DNA from: Fibrobacter sp. | GTDB lineage: Bacteria > Fibrobacterota > Fibrobacteria > Fibrobacterales > Fibrobacteraceae | Direction of reading: 5' to 3' | Length of the DNA: 64,000 nt | NCBI GenBank assembly: GCA_024398965.1 | Contig: JAKSIF010000002.1 | Span: 62,001 to 126,000 of the forward strand | In this document: positions 52,053-63,138 of the stretch, piece by piece | How positions within the stretch are numbered: position 1 is the stretch's first letter | Layout of the letters: each line of letters starts with the position of its first letter | Made by a program: the position numbers and the translations under genes | The notes under the pieces: model-generated | Seen by the model: only the letters and a program-made list of their open reading frames with translations | Database searches by the model: none | What the model was told of the DNA's origin: nothing

Positions 52053-53186
52053 CTAAAACTGGATATCCCGCAAAGATATTCTGCGATACTTGATTCGAAG
52101 AGAAACTTTACTGAAAAAATCAATCCAATAGGCGATTTCCGCCCATATGGTTTCTACAGCATCGTAGCGGAAATATTTCAGGGAATCCCGTCTTTTGCCA
52201 AACCACCAATAGAGCCATTTCAAACGGACTTTTTCAGAGTGGTATCCAAAGTTCCCGTTTTTCAAAATATCCTTCAACATCCACTCTCCGCGGAATGAAT
52301 CCGGTTTGCAGAGCATCAACGATTCATCAAGCCCGAGAGTTTGCCGAAGGACCCACATGATTGCCGCGGCGGCATGAGACAACCCCAAGGAACCTAGACG
52401 ACGAGATATTTCATTTCTGTCTTCGACAGATGAACTTCTAAGGAGAATGTAATAATCCAGCAATTGACGCAGGCCAACACCACCTGTGACAAAATGACGA
52501 TGGACATGAGACAACTGCATCGCCAAGGCAAATTTAACGTTCGGAACATAGTAGCCCTCAGGAGTCCGTTCCCGACAAGAAAGTTCGCCATTCAAAAATT
52601 TCACTAATCGTCTTGTTGAAAAGGGATTCATGTTTCCCGACGAAGGAGTAAAGTGAACTTCTACGTCAACCCCATCTTTATTTTTGGGCAAGTGTACATG
52701 ATGTTTTGTAGAATAGCCACGATTCTTGAGACCATGTTGACCAAGAAACTCTACAACACGTTTCTTTCCGCCTGACACCCAGATGTCGATGTCTCCCGGC
52801 TGCCGACAGAGCGGATTCGGGTAAAGTCTAGCGTTGGCCTGCCCTTTCAGAATAGCAGTTTGGAAATTTTCTTTTTCAAAGAAGTTCGTTTGAAGAGCAC
52901 ATTCTTTGTTCAAGAGTTCATTTAGACCGCGCACAGTCTCCGCCTCGCTGGCCCACTGGAACATCAGTTCCATGGGAGGGCGCAGTTCCTGGGGCAACTT
53001 CATCACCCCGTCAAACGCAAGCCCCAGAAGAGTCTGCCGGTCCGCCTCGTTGTAAATGCGTTCCCACTCATCCGCAGACAGCCGCGGAAACGCGCCAACA
53101 CTTGCCCCCGGACACCCAAGCGCAATACGCAACAGAAGGAAAAAATTATCGTATCGGGAAAAATCCACCGGCAAAACGATCCCCAA
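52053..53186 (-). CDS. NTP_transf_5 nucleotidyltransferase family protein
   Basis: 377 residues from TTG 53186, with AAAGG upstream. It belongs to the uncharacterised nucleotidyltransferase family PF14907: a helical N-terminal part, then AILKGQANARLYPNPLCRQP and GDIDIWV (about 113-139) with the D-x-D metal site, and a third acidic position in VDVEVHF. The family is often found near peptide-modification (lasso/RiPP) or surface polymer genes. The enzyme presumably transfers a nucleotidyl group to an unknown target. It begins 11 bases after the small gene at 53198 and is the last member of the DUF3791-DUF3990 operon. Confidence 0.75.
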   Translation of the reverse strand: MGIVLPVDFSRYDNFFLLLRIALGCPGASVGAFPRLSADEWERIYNEADRQTLLGLAFDGVMKLPQELRPPMELMFQWASEAETVRGLNELLNKECALQTNFFEKENFQTAILKGQANARLYPNPLCRQPGDIDIWVSGGKKRVVEFLGQHGLKNRGYSTKHHVHLPKNKDGVDVEVHFTPSSGNMNPFSTRRLVKFLNGELSCRERTPEGYYVPNVKFALAMQLSHVHRHFVTGGVGLRQLLDYYILLRSSSVEDRNEISRRLGSLGLSHAAAAIMWVLRQTLGLDESLMLCKPDSFRGEWMLKDILKNGNFGYHSEKVRLKWLYWWFGKRRDSLKYFRYDAVETIWAEIAYWIDFFSKVSLRIKYRRISLRDIQF

Positions 53187-53197
53187 AGCACCCTTTC

Positions 53198-53419
53198 TTA
53201 TGCATTTTGAGAAATATACTCGTCCCGAAGGATTTCATAAATATACGAGGCACTACGGGCACGCAAGCCTGTTTCCGGTTTGTTCAACGAGTCAAAAATC
53301 TTTGACTTATAAACAAAGTTAAAGGCGGTCTCCAGGTCAATTGAAAAATCATCCACAAGCAACTGGACATTCTTCTCCACAATCCTAGAAACCAAGGACT
53401 CGCTTTGCGCTGTCGTCAT
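53198..53419 (-). CDS. Small partner protein of the DUF3990 cassette
   Basis: 73 residues, alpha-helical and acidic (VEKNVQLLVDDFSIDLETAF, then SKIFDSLNKPETGLRARSAS and YIYEILRDEYIS). Small proteins with the pattern S-x2-F-x2-L-x4-TGL-x2-(Q/R)S-x2-Y(I/V)YE-x-L-x2-E are commonly encoded beside DUF3990 genes. A role as cognate inhibitor or substrate adaptor is inference. Its ATG overlaps the DUF3990 stop by one base, so synthesis is coupled to that protein. Confidence 0.6.
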   Translation of the reverse strand: MTTAQSESLVSRIVEKNVQLLVDDFSIDLETAFNFVYKSKIFDSLNKPETGLRARSASYIYEILRDEYISQNA

Positions 53420-53892
53420 TAACCTTGCCTCCGTAAATAACCTAGAGCCTTCTCTGTCAAAAAACAGAACTGATTGTTCAGGTTCTTGTACTCTAGCTCC
53501 TTCGCCAATTCATCGAGAGTTCTCAAACCATCTTCATACAAGTTCAGAAGATACGCAACGCCATCGTCCGCAATCGGTCCCTGAACAATGTCAAAGGGGT
53601 TCTGAAACTGTTGTGAACGACTTCTATTCTTGAAGATAAAGTCTGCCCATTCCTTTGTAGGACCATCAAACCGCATAACCTTGAGATTTTCGGATGCAAG
53701 TTCATTCTCGTCAAAAAAATATTCCTGGACAACAGGATTTCCACCCCAGATGTCTGAACGTTTTTTCGCCAATTCTAGAGCCTGTTCACGAATGTCGGTA
53801 ACATAGAAACCCCTGCCGAAATCCTTGTAAGGTTTCGTCTTACTCAGGTCAATCGTCGTAAATTCCGCGTTGGTTCCATGATATAGAATCAT
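53419..53892 (-). CDS. DUF3990 ADP-ribosyltransferase-like protein
   Basis: 157 residues of the DUF3990 family, which belongs to the ADP-ribosyltransferase fold. MILYHGTNAEFTTIDLSK (first NAD-contact strand, Y-H-G-T), DFGRGFYVTDIREQALELAK (second conserved block) and IVQGPIADDGVAYLL (third block with acidic residues where the catalytic Glu/Gln lies) are in the family order. Targets are unknown. It overlaps the DUF3791 gene by four bases (ATGA) and the small gene by one base. The tight coupling resembles toxin-antitoxin or effector-immunity operons, which is inference. Confidence 0.8.
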   Translation of the reverse strand: MILYHGTNAEFTTIDLSKTKPYKDFGRGFYVTDIREQALELAKKRSDIWGGNPVVQEYFFDENELASENLKVMRFDGPTKEWADFIFKNRSRSQQFQNPFDIVQGPIADDGVAYLLNLYEDGLRTLDELAKELEYKNLNNQFCFLTEKALGYLRRQG

Positions 53893-54107
53893 CCGATTGT
53901 ACCCCCGTTTCGCTTGCAGATGACAACCAGGTCGTCAAGGGCCTCGTCCGTTGGGAGAAGATGTTCCACTGCGTAATGTTCGTCAAGAAAACGAATCCCC
54001 TTAAACTGGCACAGGTATTCAGCCGCCACCTGCAGGGTAAGCTGAAAACGCTTGGCAAAAAGCCTGATGCACATGTTTATATACGGGATTTTATACTTGT
54101 TCAACAT
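53889..54107 (-). CDS. DUF3791 family protein
   Basis: 72 residues from ATG 54107, six bases after a TATATT box. It fits DUF3791, a small family nearly always next to DUF3990: MCIRLFAKRFQLTLQVAAEY, FKGIRFLDEHYAVEHLLPTD and the terminal DDLVVICKRNGGTIG. It is the first gene of the four-gene operon. It may act as antitoxin or substrate-recognition partner for the ADP-ribosyltransferase-like protein. Confidence 0.78.
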   Translation of the reverse strand: MLNKYKIPYINMCIRLFAKRFQLTLQVAAEYLCQFKGIRFLDEHYAVEHLLPTDEALDDLVVICKRNGGTIG

Positions 54108-54142: not shown

Positions 54143-54167
54143 AAAAACACCCTGCATTCTGCAGGGT
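54141..54167 (-). terminator. Terminator after the tandem peptide genes
   Basis: Perfect 8-bp stem ACCCTGCA / TGCAGGGT with a TTC loop, followed on the minus strand by GTTTTTTT. It is seven bases beyond the stop of the second peptide gene. Confidence 0.85.
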
Positions 54168-54173
54168 TTTGTC

Positions 54174-54344
54174 TTAATCTTGAGAGCACTGGCTGCCGAA
54201 GCAGGGAGTGATAACGTCAGGGTCACCACTTCCCGACAGCAGGCTTGCCCGCTGCTTCAGCTTGATGACCTTGAGTTTGGGCTGTACGTATTCCTTCTTT
54301 TTATTCATCTGCATTTTTGTTTCTTTGGTCTTAAACATTTTCAT
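54174..54344 (-). CDS. Short leader-type peptide B (RiPP-precursor-like)
   Basis: 56 residues from ATG 54344, preceded by AGGAGGAAA. The N-terminus is Lys-rich (MKMFKTKETKMQMNKKK). The block EYVQPKLKVIKLKQRASLLS is shared with peptide A in the form Y-x2-P-x2-KV-x2-LK-x-R-x-SLL. After GSGD comes a short divergent tail, PDVITPCFGSQCSQD, with two Cys. A conserved leader-like part plus a Cys-containing variable tail after a Gly-Ser-Gly is what one expects of a processed or modified peptide. No modifying enzyme of a known class is adjacent, so the role is inference. Alternative starts at MQMNKKK are possible. Confidence 0.65.
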   Translation of the reverse strand: MKMFKTKETKMQMNKKKEYVQPKLKVIKLKQRASLLSGSGDPDVITPCFGSQCSQD

Positions 54345-54480
54345 TTTCCTCCTGGAATCCATCCAGGGTAAATTCTCCATGATTCATACTGGCCTGCAAG
54401 AGACTTGTGCGGTGCTTCAGCGTCACCACCTTCATGCAGGGTTTTGCGTAAGATTTTCTGTCGGTTGACTTTTTTTGCAT
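54331..54480 (-). CDS. Short leader-type peptide A (RiPP-precursor-like)
   Basis: 49 residues from ATG 54480, with CAGGAAA upstream and only 12 bases after the stop of the giant gene, so it is probably in the same transcript. SYAKPCMKVVTLKHRTSLLQ matches the shared block of peptide B. The tail ASMNHGEFTLDGFQEENENV is acidic and lacks Cys. It overlaps peptide B by 14 bases in another frame. No signal peptide or membrane helix is present. It is too short for routine ORF calling, and the paralogy with peptide B is the main support. Confidence 0.6.
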   Translation of the reverse strand: MQKKSTDRKSYAKPCMKVVTLKHRTSLLQASMNHGEFTLDGFQEENENV

Positions 54481-54492
54481 TTTCCTGTCGCC

Positions 54493-57400
54493 TTATTTGA
54501 TAATCACTTTCTTGCCGTTGTTGTAGTAGGTCCCCTTGACAGTGGGCTTGCCGTTGAGGCGACGGCCCTTCATGTCAAACCAGCGGTCAGCCTTTTCAAG
54601 GGTTATATTGCCGGTGCGGGTGTTCATCTGGCCCACAAAGGTGACTTCGCCATCGGCATTGCCGAACAGGACTGCGATCACTTCGGGCACATCTTCTGCG
54701 ATAGCTCTGGATACGCCGCGGTATGCCGGAGCACGCAGCATTCCGTTGCCGGAGTTAGACTGATCTGAGGTTCTACTGAGCACAGCGCGCATGGGCTTGA
54801 CGCTCACGTCAGAACCGCCCTTCACGAAGTCACCGGCCTTGTAGATGCCATCTACATCATCGGCGGCGGCGAAGCCATAGACGCATTCCAGGGCGGTGCA
54901 ACCGTTTTCCCAATATCTGTTGGCGTAGGAGCCTGAGAATTCCCAATCGCCCACCTTGGGGTTGTTCAATTCAGCGGTCTGCACGGAAACAGGAGAACCC
55001 AAGGTCATGTTCAGATTCGTAGCTTCTTCCTTTAGGATGACGGCGTAGGGAACGCCGGCTTCCAGGGCGGCAACCTTGACTTCCGTTCTGAATTCGGCTG
55101 TATAGACACCGTCTTCCACAGTTACGCCCGTAAAGGCGTAGAAGTCTGCATTGGCCGTTGTACCTTCGTTGGTGGAGAAGGGCAGCACAATGGTATTGGC
55201 GATGTTCAGGCCTTCAGGGCTAGCCACGAAAGTGCGTTCAAATTCAACAGAGTTCACTTCCACCGGATTAGGCACATTTGCTGTTTCCGTGGAATTACCG
55301 AGAATCGTCGCCTTGGACTTGTCGGCAGCAATCACGATGGAACCGTAGTTGAATTCAATCTTTCCGCTGAAATCAGGGTAAGAAATTTCATCGGCAAGAT
55401 TCTGGCCCCAGACAGAACCGTCAATTCCATTGTGGAGAAGGGCTGCAACAGTACCATTAGAAAATTCTTCTCCAGTTTTGAAGCCGGATCCAAAAGAATC
55501 CCCATAGACTAGGGCAATCAGTTTTTCTGCAGAACCGGTCTTTGCAAAACTGTTTGTGACAGAACCGCAGTTGAAACCTATCACGCCGCCTACATAGGAG
55601 TATTCACCTGTAGTATTCACGGAACCGCTGTTGTAGCAGTTCGTGACGGAACCTTCGTTGGATCCTGTCACGCCGCCTACATTGGAGTATTCACCTGTAG
55701 TATTCACGGAACCGCTGTTGTAGCAGTTTGTGACGGAACCTTCGTTGAATCCTGTCACGCCGCCGACATAGTTTTGTCCTCGGAAGTAGGAATCCTCAAC
55801 GCCTACATTCTCAACCTTTCCGTCAGAACCTACATACCCAAACAAACCGACATTTTCTTCTGATTCATCATTGAAATACAGTCCCTTGATAGCAAAGCCT
55901 TGCCCATCGAAAGTTCCTGTATATTGTTTACTGCGGTTTCCAATGAGAGTCCAGGTCCTAAAGCTAGTTCCGTTGGTCACATTACCATCAGCATCCTTTA
56001 CCAACTGAGACTGCAATGGATTTGTTGCACTGCCGTTCACATAGATGTTTTTCGTCAGCCTGCCGCAAATACTTACTCCAGAAGGCATGTCGGCTGGAAC
56101 GCTAACAGTTCCGTTCACAAGGGCGGCAAAGCCGTACAATTGTTCTACATTAGAAATTTCGTAGCACTGATTACCAGCCAGCACAGGAATTTCTTGCCAC
56201 CTGGCATAGAAAGTCTTTGCTCCGGAGGCGTCGGCTGCGATGGAGGACACTGGTTCGCCAGAGAAGTCAGCACTGTTGTACCAACCAACAAAGCCATAGC
56301 CTTCGCGGGTAGGAATAGCAAGTGAAAGTTCTACACCCTCAAGGTAAACCGAAGGATTTGCGGAATTATCCACATCCGAGTTTATAGCATCCTTACCATT
56401 CAACTCGTATGTAATGGTATAGGCAAAACTCCACTTGGCGTAATATTTCTTTGTCCAGATGGTGTTTTCGCCAACGGTTTGCGCTGTTGCAGAAATCTGA
56501 GCGGCGGCGACGATGGTTTTGACAGCGTCACCAGAGAAGTCCTCATTTTCATACCAGCCAGCAAAGGCATAACCTTCGCGGGTGGGGATCGGCAGCTCAG
56601 TTTCGGTTCCGTAGGAATGTGTACTTGCGGCATTAGCTGCGTTAGAACCTTCGTTCAGAACATATTCAAGATTGAATTTCACTACGCCAGGCTGCAGATT
56701 TCCTTCTGCATCATAAGTGTTGGAAAGAACAGGATAAGCGTCCGTGCCAACATTCTGCCCCCAGACGTAGCCATTCGTTCCATTGTGGAGAAGTATTGCG
56801 ACGGTACCGTCATGGAATTCAGTTTCGTCCCTAAAGGCAACACCTGCTGGACTGACAAGGCCAACCGGTGATCCAGACTTTGCAAAGCAGTTCTTGATGG
56901 AACCATCGTTGATTCCGGTAACGCTACCTACAAAAATATCGCCGCCAGTGACAGAACCGCTATTGTAGCTGTTTGCGATGGAACCTACATTGATTCCAGC
57001 AACGCCACCGACATAATTATCGCCGCCAGCAACAGAACTGCTATTGTAGCTGTTTGCAATGGAACCTTGATTATATCCAGCTACGCCACCGACAACGTTT
57101 AAACCTCGGATGTAGGAATCCTCAACACCTACATTCTCAACCTTTCCGTCAGAACCTACATACCCAAACAAACCTACACTATCTTTTGATCCTTCATTGA
57201 AATACAGTCCCTTGATAGCAAAGCCTTGCCCATCGAAAGTTCCTGTATATTGTTTACTGCTGTTTCCAATGGGAGTCCAGGTCCTGAATCCGCCTTCGGT
57301 CACCGTATTCAGTTTGCCTTCGTCATCCAGCACATTCTCGTTCACCACAATTTCATTCGCCAGCTTGCCACAGATGTTTGAACCAACCGGATAACCACTG

Positions 57401-60400
57401 GGGAGTTGTGATGCCGTGATAACTCCATTCACAAGGGCCGCAAAGCTATACAGCTGATTAACGCTGGAGATTTCGAAACATTCACTGACGGTGCCCTTAT
57501 TCACCAGAGTCGGAAGTTCCTGCCACTTGGCATAGAAGGTCAATGCTCCGGTAGCGTCGTCTGCAATGGAAGCCACGGCTTCGCCAAAGAAGTCAGCACT
57601 TTTGTACCAACCCACAAAGGCATACCCCTCGCGAGTAGGAACAAGCAGCGTAGTTGGCGTACCATACTGATAATCGGTTGAACTAATTTCGCTACCATCT
57701 TCATCAACATAGGTAACCTTGAACTTAGCCAACTCAACAGTCACATCGACAGACTGTTCCTCCACGCCAAACCAGTTATCGTTTTCCTCGACCTTGTAGT
57801 AAACCGTATAATTGCCTGCAGCATCAGCGCAAGGAATATCGGTGGAATAAGCAGTCTGTGACCCGCCTTCCATTAACACGCTGTAAAGCATATCCCCAGA
57901 GTTCGAGGATCCAGAGGCTACAAGTGCGACGCATGCACCAGCGTACTTCGGATTGGCAGAAGTCGGGGGTTCAACTGTGGGCGTAGCCTTCGTGATATTA
58001 AAGGATTTTGAAACAGAACCGAATTCCGCATAATCACCCTTGAATGTAACAGTTACAGTTGCGGTGCCAACATTTATATTGTTGGAATATGAATATTCGT
58101 AGTCGGTACCTTCGGTGAAATTAAGAGAACCTAATGAAACCGTTGGCTTTGGTGTAATTGTTTCTCCTGTATATGTCTGATCCTCGACATCAAAAGCAGG
58201 GATTCCTGTATATATGATTTTACGTTCTCCATTTTCAATAATGCCGAAATAATCATTTTTACTTACAGACACATCAATATCATCGTGCATATAAATTATG
58301 CTTTCGCCGTTCTTGATGCTTGATGCATCCACCACATCGACATCGTCGTATATAGTCACAGTACCAATTTCATTCTTAGAACCATAATATGTATAACCCG
58401 TACCAATGCCATTTGCTTCTGTACCGCCAACAGCCTTTACAGAACCACCCTTAATGGTAATATTGCCAAGTCTTGCAGTTTTCGAAGTAACCTCACTAAT
58501 GATTACTCCTGTTCCGATGCCTGAACCCCACCGGGAATATCCAATTGCCGTGATATTTCCACCTTCAATTACAATATCTCCACCTATGGCATCAACATTC
58601 CATGCTTGACTCAAGCCAATACCAGCAGAATTATGATTACCCGATACGGTTAATGAACCTTCACCCCTAATTGTCAGAGTTGATCCTAAGCCTCCAACTT
58701 GAATACCAGCCTTTTGATAAGCACCAGTTACATTATTTTCACCCACAAGAGTAATGGATGCCGAACCATCACAGATAATTCCACCATTGATTGTAGCACC
58801 TGAAAGAGAAATGTTAGCCTTATCAGCAACCATCACTGTATATTGAGTTGTACCACTAAGTACATCTCCATCTACAGCAGTGAAATTATTAGTTGCTTCG
58901 GACAAATTAATAAAACTTTCACGATTTATGGTTGCAGAAATGTTTATATTAGATGTTCCTATAGTCACACCATATACACTATTTGATGCAACCAACATAT
59001 TTGTTCCATCAGAAACATCAGTTGCTGTATAAGGAAACAAAGGTCTAAACTCAACTACTGTTCCAGAAATATATTTACCGTCACCATCTGCAGGATTGGA
59101 TGTTCTAATAATTTCCATGTGCTCGGGGAAATCAACAGAATATGTTTCCGCGACCTCTGCCGCCACATTTACATCACCATCTGGCATAACAAAGGTGTAT
59201 GTACCTTCTCCTACATCAGACAATGACACTGCTCCTCCATTTATCTTTACTGATGAAGCATCAACAGCAACACCAAGAGTCAGTGTAATCAACTCTCCAG
59301 CAAGAGCATATTCTGGATTTACTGTTATATGAGCCTTAATATCATCATCAATTACAGTATGGTGATTCAAGGCTTTGGTTCGAATAATTCGCCATTCTCC
59401 TTCACCAGAATCGTCAAATATCTCATCCTTAGCAACACCAGTGACTATACTTCCTTCATTCTTAAAATTAACGGTAATATTTTCTTTATTCCCTATACAT
59501 CCAGAATTATTAGATGTTGCAACGATTTTCTTAATTCCGTTCGAAATATTAATTGTTATACTGCCAGTTCCGGATTGTCCAGCGCCAATGCCCTTTGCAT
59601 AAATAACACCACCGTTTAGATTAACGGCACTAGCTTTTCCACTTTGACCACTGCCAATCCCAGCACCACTTCCCTTAGCATCTGCTGCATCGACAATTCC
59701 ACCATTAATCGTAATCGATCCAACCGATCTAAACTGAACTGATCCAATACCAGCCCCTAGATTTCCTCGTGCTGTAATTTTTCCACCATTAATCGTTATC
59801 GAACCCGCGTCACCACTACCATACGCACACCCGATTCCCGCATATGGAGTCAACGAATTGGGAGATGAAGCATTCAACGTACCCATATTCATTTCATCTT
59901 CCGTTTGTGCATATACATTAAAAGATGCTGTTGTTGCTACAGTGATTCCTTTATTTGCATTAAGTGTTTTACCATTTGCCAATATCAAATGAACTTCACC
60001 ATTTACAGTAATACGATCATCAACTGTTACATCTTCATAGACAACATACCAACCTTCATCCCATGTAGTCATACTGCTTGTAACTTTCGTTGCGTCCTCC
60101 ATCAATCGCACCATATTTCCATCAGAATTCAGATACGAAACAACCTGCGTCTCGGCTTCTATTATTTCCGTTGTCAAATCGGCATCTAAGAAAAACTTGC
60201 CGCATACAGAGCACTGCCAGTATTCAATATGATTCGCGTCAGCTTCATGATGCTCAGTTACATGAGCCAACATCGCTGTCACACATTCATCTACATCTAA
60301 CCCTATTTCACCATTCTCGTCTTCAAAATATTTTCCATCCCCACGAAGATAACATTCTCTCAATACACCTTGCTGGGTGCAAGTTGCCGACTGCGGAGTG

Positions 60401-60951
60401 AGATGAGTATATGTCACATTATAGCCATACAGTCTAATTTCTGTTAAACCTATATTTCGGTCTTCTTCTGTACATTCAAAGCGGAAAAATCTATATTGAT
60501 TGTTCACTTCATTGACAACAGGGTAATTATGTTCTGTTCCCGAATAGGTCTGATCGATGTACTCTGATACTAAAACATAGTCATCATCTTCATCAGCCTT
60601 AGCGAATAATCTCCACTCCGACGGATGAAATTCACTTTCGTCATATGAATTTAGTTTGTATCCCTTTAAGAAAATAGGAACATCTGATCTAAATTCAACA
60701 TATGAGAAACCTGAAGCAGGTTCAATATCTCTCCACCTTGTAGATGGATCTCCATCCACTACATTCGAATAGGTATACCTAGTATTAGTGATAGAACCAT
60801 CCGTTGCCGTAAAACCTGTGAATAAAGTGTAGTCTTTGCCTTCAATCGAGATGGGAGATTGTTCTGTTGCAGCAAAGGCATTTGCCGAGAACAACAGCGC
60901 CAGCACCATGACCAGCGTGGTCAAATAAGAGTTAATGCCATTACGCATCAT
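54493..60951 (-). CDS. Giant secreted multi-domain repeat protein
   Basis: 2152 residues with AAGGAG before ATG 60951. Signal peptide to about residue 28 (FSANAFA). A discoidin-like F5/8C region follows (about 35-180, SNVVDGDPSTRWRDIEPASG). Next is a Cys-pair segment (YWQCSVCGKFFLDADLTTEI), then long beta-helical carbohydrate-binding-type repeats to about 900 (SITINGGKITARGNLGAGIG). At least three Flg_new/InlB-B repeats (PTREGYAFVGWY...FYAKW; about 1077-1150, 1424-1514, 1514-1587) alternate with GLUG motifs (VGGVTGFNEGSVTNCYNSGS; about 1250-1350 and 1670-1800). The last 35 residues (WFDMKGRRLNGKPTVKGTYY) look like a T9SS type A sorting tail. Probably a cell-surface adhesin. Two peptide genes follow closely. 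Confidence 0.82.
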   Translation of the reverse strand: MMRNGINSYLTTLVMVLALLFSANAFAATEQSPISIEGKDYTLFTGFTATDGSITNTRYTYSNVVDGDPSTRWRDIEPASGFSYVEFRSDVPIFLKGYKLNSYDESEFHPSEWRLFAKADEDDDYVLVSEYIDQTYSGTEHNYPVVNEVNNQYRFFRFECTEEDRNIGLTEIRLYGYNVTYTHLTPQSATCTQQGVLRECYLRGDGKYFEDENGEIGLDVDECVTAMLAHVTEHHEADANHIEYWQCSVCGKFFLDADLTTEIIEAETQVVSYLNSDGNMVRLMEDATKVTSSMTTWDEGWYVVYEDVTVDDRITVNGEVHLILANGKTLNANKGITVATTASFNVYAQTEDEMNMGTLNASSPNSLTPYAGIGCAYGSGDAGSITINGGKITARGNLGAGIGSVQFRSVGSITINGGIVDAADAKGSGAGIGSGQSGKASAVNLNGGVIYAKGIGAGQSGTGSITINISNGIKKIVATSNNSGCIGNKENITVNFKNEGSIVTGVAKDEIFDDSGEGEWRIIRTKALNHHTVIDDDIKAHITVNPEYALAGELITLTLGVAVDASSVKINGGAVSLSDVGEGTYTFVMPDGDVNVAAEVAETYSVDFPEHMEIIRTSNPADGDGKYISGTVVEFRPLFPYTATDVSDGTNMLVASNSVYGVTIGTSNINISATINRESFINLSEATNNFTAVDGDVLSGTTQYTVMVADKANISLSGATINGGIICDGSASITLVGENNVTGAYQKAGIQVGGLGSTLTIRGEGSLTVSGNHNSAGIGLSQAWNVDAIGGDIVIEGGNITAIGYSRWGSGIGTGVIISEVTSKTARLGNITIKGGSVKAVGGTEANGIGTGYTYYGSKNEIGTVTIYDDVDVVDASSIKNGESIIYMHDDIDVSVSKNDYFGIIENGERKIIYTGIPAFDVEDQTYTGETITPKPTVSLGSLNFTEGTDYEYSYSNNINVGTATVTVTFKGDYAEFGSVSKSFNITKATPTVEPPTSANPKYAGACVALVASGSSNSGDMLYSVLMEGGSQTAYSTDIPCADAAGNYTVYYKVEENDNWFGVEEQSVDVTVELAKFKVTYVDEDGSEISSTDYQYGTPTTLLVPTREGYAFVGWYKSADFFGEAVASIADDATGALTFYAKWQELPTLVNKGTVSECFEISSVNQLYSFAALVNGVITASQLPSGYPVGSNICGKLANEIVVNENVLDDEGKLNTVTEGGFRTWTPIGNSSKQYTGTFDGQGFAIKGLYFNEGSKDSVGLFGYVGSDGKVENVGVEDSYIRGLNVVGGVAGYNQGSIANSYNSSSVAGGDNYVGGVAGINVGSIANSYNSGSVTGGDIFVGSVTGINDGSIKNCFAKSGSPVGLVSPAGVAFRDETEFHDGTVAILLHNGTNGYVWGQNVGTDAYPVLSNTYDAEGNLQPGVVKFNLEYVLNEGSNAANAASTHSYGTETELPIPTREGYAFAGWYENEDFSGDAVKTIVAAAQISATAQTVGENTIWTKKYYAKWSFAYTITYELNGKDAINSDVDNSANPSVYLEGVELSLAIPTREGYGFVGWYNSADFSGEPVSSIAADASGAKTFYARWQEIPVLAGNQCYEISNVEQLYGFAALVNGTVSVPADMPSGVSICGRLTKNIYVNGSATNPLQSQLVKDADGNVTNGTSFRTWTLIGNRSKQYTGTFDGQGFAIKGLYFNDESEENVGLFGYVGSDGKVENVGVEDSYFRGQNYVGGVTGFNEGSVTNCYNSGSVNTTGEYSNVGGVTGSNEGSVTNCYNSGSVNTTGEYSYVGGVIGFNCGSVTNSFAKTGSAEKLIALVYGDSFGSGFKTGEEFSNGTVAALLHNGIDGSVWGQNLADEISYPDFSGKIEFNYGSIVIAADKSKATILGNSTETANVPNPVEVNSVEFERTFVASPEGLNIANTIVLPFSTNEGTTANADFYAFTGVTVEDGVYTAEFRTEVKVAALEAGVPYAVILKEEATNLNMTLGSPVSVQTAELNNPKVGDWEFSGSYANRYWENGCTALECVYGFAAADDVDGIYKAGDFVKGGSDVSVKPMRAVLSRTSDQSNSGNGMLRAPAYRGVSRAIAEDVPEVIAVLFGNADGEVTFVGQMNTRTGNITLEKADRWFDMKGRRLNGKPTVKGTYYNNGKKVIIK
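55602..55937 (-). repeat. Internal DNA repeats in the giant gene
   Basis: Two nearly identical 72-bp units encode the GLUG module NSGSVNTTGEYS (about 55605-55748). A block of about 150 bases (55795-55937) recurs at 57118-57260 with few changes and encodes QYTGTFDGQGFAIKGLYFN...VENVGVEDSY. Such near-identity at DNA level implies recent duplication or recombination inside the gene. Confidence 0.8.
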
Positions 60952-62228: not shown

Positions 62229-62290
62229 TTTTGTAAAGATTGAACACCCTTCAAGAAGGCCAAAAAACGCTTTTTACAGCGCCTTGATTT
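62229..62290. repeat. 62-bp direct repeat, right copy
   Basis: Matches 61271-61331. It covers the stop codon, the last five codons and about 45 bases of 3' flank of the Rpn-type gene. Confidence 0.88.
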
Positions 62291-63056
62291 CTTCGGGAGT
62301 GAGGCCAGAAACTGAGGCAATTTCTTCCAAAGTAAGTTTTCCCTGAACACGCAACGCCTTGGCGAGTTCCTTGTTCTTGTCACTCTGCCCTTTCTCGTAA
62401 CGAATGTTAAGTTCCTGTTCCAGGGTCATGTAAGCCTTCTTTGCAATAGGGTCCTTGCGGTACTGTTCCACGAGATCGTGGATGCGCTTCATCTTTGCGG
62501 ATCCGTGCTCCTGCGTGGCGAAGTACTGCATGTATTCGCGAATGGAGTTGTCCTTGATTTCGCGGTACTTCTTAAAGATATAAAAGTTTTTATAACAAAG
62601 GTCGCCCATTAAAATATTTGGGTCGCTTTCTTCGCGGTTCTGGAACCTGTAAACGGGCTTGTCCTTGCCGAAGATGTCGTCCGGGCAAATGAACAGAATG
62701 TACTGTTCTTGAAGTTTGGTGTAATTCACTCCCTTGGCGAGGACATCTAGGTCGCACATTCCCTGGTAGTAGCGGGCGCGCTTGGGCAGTTCGCCGGTAT
62801 CGACCATCTGCAACTCAATATCGAAGTAACGACCTGTGCTAGGCAATTCCTCCTTCACGAGCACATCGAAGCGGACGCTCTTGTGGAAGGGATCTTCCTG
62901 GGTCGTGGCTTCGGCGACCACGGAAATCTTGTCGATGGAAATTTTCAGGACGTCCTGCAGAAAATCCTTGGCCACATCCTCGTTGCTGAATACCTTGGCA
63001 AACATAAAGTTGTCGGTAATGTCCAGGTCTTCGTACTTTTTCATTTGATAGCTCAT
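62274..63056 (-). CDS. Rpn-family PD-(D/E)XK nuclease
   Basis: 260 residues from ATG 63056, preceded by GAGGATAAA; an upstream in-frame start has no support. It belongs to the Rpn/PDDEXK_2 group of recombination-promoting nucleases, often labelled transposase. YEDLDITDNFMFAKVFSNED opens the family. FDVLVKEE then GRYFDIELQM provide the D...E-x-Q catalytic core (about 78-100), and RARYYQGMCDLDVLAKGVNY follows. The C-terminal tail (KLTLEEIASVSGLTPEEIKA) resembles a small HTH, as in many family members. Such genes occur in several copies per Fibrobacter genome. The 3' end is the right copy of the 62-bp repeat. Confidence 0.85.
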   Translation of the reverse strand: MSYQMKKYEDLDITDNFMFAKVFSNEDVAKDFLQDVLKISIDKISVVAEATTQEDPFHKSVRFDVLVKEELPSTGRYFDIELQMVDTGELPKRARYYQGMCDLDVLAKGVNYTKLQEQYILFICPDDIFGKDKPVYRFQNREESDPNILMGDLCYKNFYIFKKYREIKDNSIREYMQYFATQEHGSAKMKRIHDLVEQYRKDPIAKKAYMTLEQELNIRYEKGQSDKNKELAKALRVQGKLTLEEIASVSGLTPEEIKAL

Positions 63057-63060
63057 TTTA

Positions 63061-63138
63061 TCCTCAAAAAAAATCCACAACGTCGTCGTGTCCCTTTGCC
63101 GGGAGGACTTCGTCATGGATCTATTAAACTATTTTGAG
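63061..63138. other. Inverted repeat upstream of the Rpn gene
   Basis: TCCTCAAAA (63061-63069, including the ribosome binding site of the Rpn gene) and TTTTGAGGA (63130-63138) are exact inverted copies 60 bases apart. Pairing would hide the ribosome binding site. A 23-codon plus-strand frame (ATG 63115) between them is probably chance. Confidence 0.4.

Follow-up and report, generated by a model that had tools for sequence, protein, structure and literature searches.

Candidate LPP-type precursor peptide genes behind a tail-bearing surface protein gene in Fibrobacter

Two small genes follow a giant surface protein gene in the window, by which we mean the whole stretch of 64,000 nucleotides analysed. 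They very probably encode precursors of the linear polyphosphorylated peptide (LPP) type, served in trans by a maturation cassette on contig C5, far from the window. At the sequence level, this assignment is built on a peptide family with a conserved leader, the cassette, the co-occurrence of the two across genomes, the pairing of the precursors with one kind of surface protein, and matching catalytic and recognition residues. An earlier note, made from the letters of this DNA, had read the pair as ribosomally made, processed peptides; this reading is supported, with processing as its predicted part.

The window locus and its peptide family

Both small genes lie on the minus strand, at 54331-54480 (49 aa) and 54174-54344 (56 aa), and have 14 bases in common; the first starts 12 bases past the stop of the 2152-aa gene. 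These coordinates, as given in the earlier note, stand uncorrected. The note had claimed a ribosome binding site for each frame; AGGAGG is found in front of the start of the 56-aa ORF, for which there are several candidate start codons (ATG at 54350, 54344 or 54338, with more in-frame Met codons downstream). The peptide operon ends, as had been claimed, at a terminator, which is intrinsic (54167-54149, fold z = -2.5), and a single transcript probably carries the giant surface protein gene together with both precursor genes. Disruption of the frames in a relative had been named as a sign against the pair; neither is interrupted in a second genome (G047), where a 319-base region shows 2 base differences. 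The features of the locus are as follows.

54493..60951, minus strand: secreted repeat protein of 2152 aa, with an N-terminal signal-like segment, Listeria-Bacteroides repeats and GLUG motifs; heads the operon
54496..54630, minus strand: distinct C-terminal tail of this protein, last 45 residues, QMNTRTGNITLEKADRWFDMKGRRLNGKPTVKGTYYNNGKKVIIK; marks peptide-linked proteins
54331..54480, minus strand: predicted precursor peptide gene 1, 49 aa, MQKKSTDRKSYAKPCMKVVTLKHRTSLL / QASMNHGEFTLDGFQEENENV; intact in G047
54397..54480, minus strand: predicted leader of peptide 1, residues 1-28, with Y11xxP14 and LL at its end; from the 86-sequence alignment and the LppA cleavage site (PMC13381572)
54334..54396, minus strand: predicted core of peptide 1, residues 29-49; the conserved Ser31, core residue 3, is the predicted phosphorylation site
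54174..54344, minus strand: predicted precursor peptide gene 2, 56 aa, ...KKKEYVQPKLKVIKLKQRASLL / SGSGDPDVITPCFGSQCSQD
54237..54344, minus strand: predicted leader of peptide 2, residues 1-36, with Y19xxP22; from the alignment and the LppA site
54177..54236, minus strand: predicted core of peptide 2, residues 37-56; conserved Ser39 would be core residue 3
54149..54167, minus strand: intrinsic terminator of the operon
52053..53186, minus strand: LppN-like nucleotidyltransferase of the NTP_transf_5 family; keeps its active-site motifs and every residue that is invariant among its relatives, GxxNxxLYP and GDIDIW included

Between the peptide pair and the NTP_transf_5 gene lies a DUF3990 gene (E 3e-47; 53419-53892, minus strand), which resembles an inserted module and is accompanied by short ORFs at 53198-53419 and 53889-54107; elsewhere, in further copies of the locus, this position is taken by an AAA ATPase gene. 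Upstream of the surface gene there is a PDDEXK_2 gene (PD-(D/E)XK nuclease family transposase-type; 62274-63116, minus strand).

Peptides 1 and 2 have in common the block Y-x2-P-x2-K-V-x2-LK-x-R-x-SLL, with V-I instead of V-V in peptide 2. The block, first pointed out in the earlier note, is real: a search with peptide 1 recovered peptide 2 and more copies in the same genome, which has ten peptide copies, namely the window pair, pairs on contigs C7 (twice) and C84, and singles on C76 and C5. Within the taxonomic family, a profile search revealed relatives in 76 of 111 genomes, almost all of them Fibrobacter, with up to 12 per genome. What emerged is the picture that the earlier note had expected of such a family, with many short genes that combine a common N-terminal block, variable tails and constant neighbours. 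The peptides gave no significant Pfam or NCBIfam match.

An alignment of 86 non-redundant peptides, Prevotella-group sequences included, follows the pattern K-K-x-Y-x2-P-x-[ML]...L-L-x-x-S, after which comes a variable acidic tail. The Tyr and Pro are present in 86 of 86 sequences, and Ser or Thr occupies the last position of L-L-x-x-[ST] in 84 of 85. The Tyr-Ser distance is 20 in 77 of 85 peptides, 19 in five and 21 in three, and the stretch after the Ser has a median of 17 residues and is net acidic in 95% of the peptides. Among related pairs, identity averages 67% in the leaders compared to 25% in the tails, which bears out the proposal of a conserved leader and a variable core. A double-glycine (C39) leader was rejected, as G[GA] occurs near the junction in only 5 of 85 peptides.

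Contig C7 (L012:39-9667) carries two units of a surface gene and a peptide pair, ~6.5 kb apart. The first peptides of the two units are identical, and the second-peptide copies are identical over their leading 75 of 75 bases and differ in their cores; a common leader with unlike cores looks like core exchange after duplication. In addition, an orphan peptide gene on C76 (L014:1737-1916), possibly a remnant, stands without a tail protein, yet it still has the N-terminal stretch which at other loci overlaps the tail gene.

The maturation cassette and its likeness to LPP systems

The C5 cluster is the sole maturation cassette of the window genome. It is composed of NTP_transf_5, tail protein, peptide, HprK-like kinase, S26-like peptidase, PqqD and ABC exporter genes, in this order. 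The kinase-peptidase-PqqD-ABC order is present in 12 Fibrobacter loci, and a scan of genome contigs found the cassette also in Prevotella, Segatella baroniae B14, Xylanibacter ruminicola and Bacteroidaceae. Several of these Bacteroidota cassettes are preceded by a tail protein and then a peptide, some with NTP_transf_5 as well. PqqD is single-copy in 72 of the 111 family genomes, and 71 of those 72 also carry peptides; neither is found in 34 genomes, peptides only in five, some of which are incomplete assemblies, and PqqD only in one. The precursors are scattered, with up to ~12 per genome versus one cassette; most are not adjacent to it, and some lie inside the cassette operon. Because the cassette is absent from the window locus, we infer from this co-occurrence that maturation takes place in trans. 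At one further locus (L101; G030:C1:341907-342876), NTP_transf_5 and the cassette come directly behind a strong tail protein, with no peptide detected; the precursor was either lost or diverged.

The LPP system described by Popov et al. (Nature Communications, May 2026; PMC13381572) comprises LppA, LppB (RRE), LppK, LppS, LppD and LppN. LppA has a YxxP leader, Ser3 and a variable C-terminus. LppK phosphorylates Ser3, and LppS, with the catalytic residues S29/H68/D93, cleaves two residues before Ser3 in an RRE-dependent manner, the YxxP being held by N33 and D70 of LppB (PMC13381572). Both LPP and the present system have a YxxP-leader precursor with a conserved Ser and a variable C-terminus, a discrete RRE, an HprK-like kinase, an SpI-like Ser/His peptidase, an MsbA-like exporter and an NTP transferase. 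LPP clusters have no lasso cyclase, and none was noticed in the gene maps of the clusters here. Moreover, LPP loci often lie beside polysaccharide genes, and polysaccharide-type genes likewise adjoin the C5 cluster.

The likeness extends to individual residues. The PqqD-type protein (Pfam PqqD, E 4e-13) has the lasso recognition protein TfuB1 as its nearest solved relative, and its invariant N35 and D74 align with an Asn and an Asp of TfuB1. By way of TfuB1, we take these two as putative counterparts of the YxxP-holding N33 and D70 of LppB; the lasso PqqD chaperone in PDB entry 9x90 is without the Asn/Asp pair. In the S26-like peptidase, S29, H77 and the Asp of GDGN are invariant in 14 sequences and fit the S29/H68/D93 of LppS as the presumed catalytic residues; its match to sigpep_I (E 6e-4) is under the family cut-off. 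The kinase gave weak HprK matches under the curated family cut-offs, has an invariant P-loop SGTGKST, and its predicted structure (pLDDT 87) adopts an HprK/PEPCK fold. The ABC transporter of the cassette is an MsbA-like exporter. As for the NTP_transf_5 family, which the earlier note had linked to some RiPP clusters, the hint held up: each of the four NTP_transf_5 genes in this genome has peptide genes nearby, and in ten near-complete genomes the gene is directly behind a peptide gene in 9 of 19 cases. Fold search with the enzyme gave a weak nucleotidyltransferase-like match (5uvd), with CCA-adding enzymes weaker still, and a PDB sequence search gave no match.

By analogy with the LPP pathway, the PqqD-type protein would bind the Y-x-x-P leader, and the HprK-like kinase would phosphorylate the conserved Ser, core residue 3, a modification that we consider likely. 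The S26-like Ser/His peptidase would then remove the leader. As LppA is cut two residues before its Ser, the cut is predicted after L-L, which would yield the cores QASMNHGEF... (peptide 1) and SGSGDPDVI... (peptide 2). The short acidic core would be exported by the ABC transporter, and the NTP_transf_5 enzyme, one copy of which is encoded 1 kb downstream in the window, would probably put a further group on the phosphate.

Compared to LPP, the leaders here end in LL rather than FET, so that the predicted cut follows a Leu where LppA has Thr. The Tyr-Ser distance is 20 versus 18 in the LPP consensus, and the cores are shorter and acidic. The authors of the LPP study describe these peptides as confined to Bacillota (PMC13381572), whereas the present system is found in Fibrobacterota and Bacteroidota; our literature search found no Fibrobacter or Prevotella versions. 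Here the precursors are scattered, and their partner is a tail-bearing surface protein; neither feature appears in the text of the LPP paper (PMC13381572). The same architecture in two further phyla suggests either the same family or an independent assembly.

Pairing with the tail-bearing surface protein

The surface proteins linked to the peptides end in a tail with the consensus N-T-x-T-G-E...R-W-[FY]-D-L-x-G-R-x-L-N-x-K-P-x-x-K-G-x-Y-Y-x-N-G-K-x-V-I-V-K, which has no Pfam or NCBIfam match. About 62 of the 66 distinct peptides first collected sit behind a large secreted protein with this tail, and in the window genome each of the five tail genes has peptide genes behind it. Across ten other Fibrobacter genomes, a peptide lies within 400 bases downstream for 31 of 33 strong tail matches, compared to a chance expectation of ~0.03% for the pairing; matches without a detected peptide amount to 4 of 12 among the weaker ones and 2 of 33 among the strong ones. 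Seen from the peptides of these ten genomes, the tail is upstream of 52 of 57, and the other five are without a tail protein. The tail gene and the peptide gene often overlap or lie at most 50 bases apart, and the paired surface proteins in the ten genomes range from ~290 to 2660 residues.

The tail resembles the T9SS sorting tail (Por_Secre_tail, PF18962) in that both are short C-terminal segments of large secreted proteins and contain D-L-x-G-R as well as a G-x-Y stretch at the end. However, Por_Secre_tail has 27 matches in the genome, and none of the five peptide-linked tails is among them, so this identity was rejected.

The near-strict pairing, with genes that frequently overlap or lie within 50 bases of each other, together with the location of most peptide genes away from the cassette, would also suit small co-translated helpers of the tail-bearing protein (chaperone, escort or inhibitor) that are never processed. 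We find this explanation improbable. The contrast between leader and core is sharp, most clearly in the C7 copies with their identical leaders and different cores; YxxP and Ser are invariant, as in LppA; and the peptides co-occur with PqqD across genomes, with some of their genes within the cassette operon. Recent duplication of one locus, leaving the neighbours functionally unlinked, might be read from the C2, C7 and C84 loci, which are near-identical in part, NTP_transf_5 N-terminus included, but is most unlikely given that the pairing far exceeds its chance expectation and holds for proteins of such different lengths in the ten other Fibrobacter genomes and also in Bacteroidota.

If the peptides are LPP-type precursors, their product would most likely act at the cell surface, because the peptide genes are nearly always behind one tail type. 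For the more specific claim that the matured product acts together with the surface protein, we see an even chance; physical binding of the two is doubtful, and a product that stays with or on the tail protein is speculative. Tentatively, several large secreted proteins might each have their own paired phosphopeptide, with tail and peptide recognising each other or being joined at the surface, possibly via a phosphate-linked group that NTP_transf_5 attaches. If so, the peptides would form an exchangeable set of surface tags, with one cassette maturing all of them. This machinery is frequent among fibre-degrading bacteria of gut and rumen from two phyla, and nearly all of its precursors are tied to one kind of surface protein. 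The pairing offers a concrete handle on LPP function and directs attention to the cell surface.

Lasso peptides and HprK-related systems

Lasso peptide precursors would have the same leader, and a B2 peptidase together with an asparagine-synthetase-like cyclase would close the core into a lasso. The YxxPx[ML] leader, PqqD, kinase, NTP_transf_5 and ABC transporter are common to paeninodin- and Bsf-type lasso clusters, and TfuB1, the solved protein closest to our PqqD, belongs to a lasso system. The phosphorylated or phosphoglycosylated lasso peptides paeninodin, pseudomycoidin and Bsf (PMC8498205, PMC10368454) have a similar YxxPxL-type leader (WxxP in paeninodins), and their PqqD, HprK-like kinase, nucleotidyltransferase and ABC exporter are also found in the present system; BsfK phosphorylates core Ser3 behind a YxxPxL leader (PMC10368454). 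Unlike these systems, however, the window genome has no match to Transglut_core3 (B2, PF13471), and no macrolactam cyclase was noticed in the gene maps of the mapped clusters. The lasso core pattern is likewise missing: a small residue 1 (G/A/S/C) with Asp/Glu at 7-9 occurs, at the best cleavage offset, in 47% of the peptides, and there is no conserved Thr(-2). A lasso system is therefore largely refuted, and we give it very little credence.

The HPr-rel-A system (TIGR04352/TIGR04353) also combines an HprK-related kinase with a PqqD-family protein. Membership was rejected, as the scores of 15 versus 200 and 16 versus 35 bits are far under the curated cut-offs. In one Fibrobacter locus (L097:11747-13159), the HprK-like kinase and the S26-like peptidase are fused in a single ORF.
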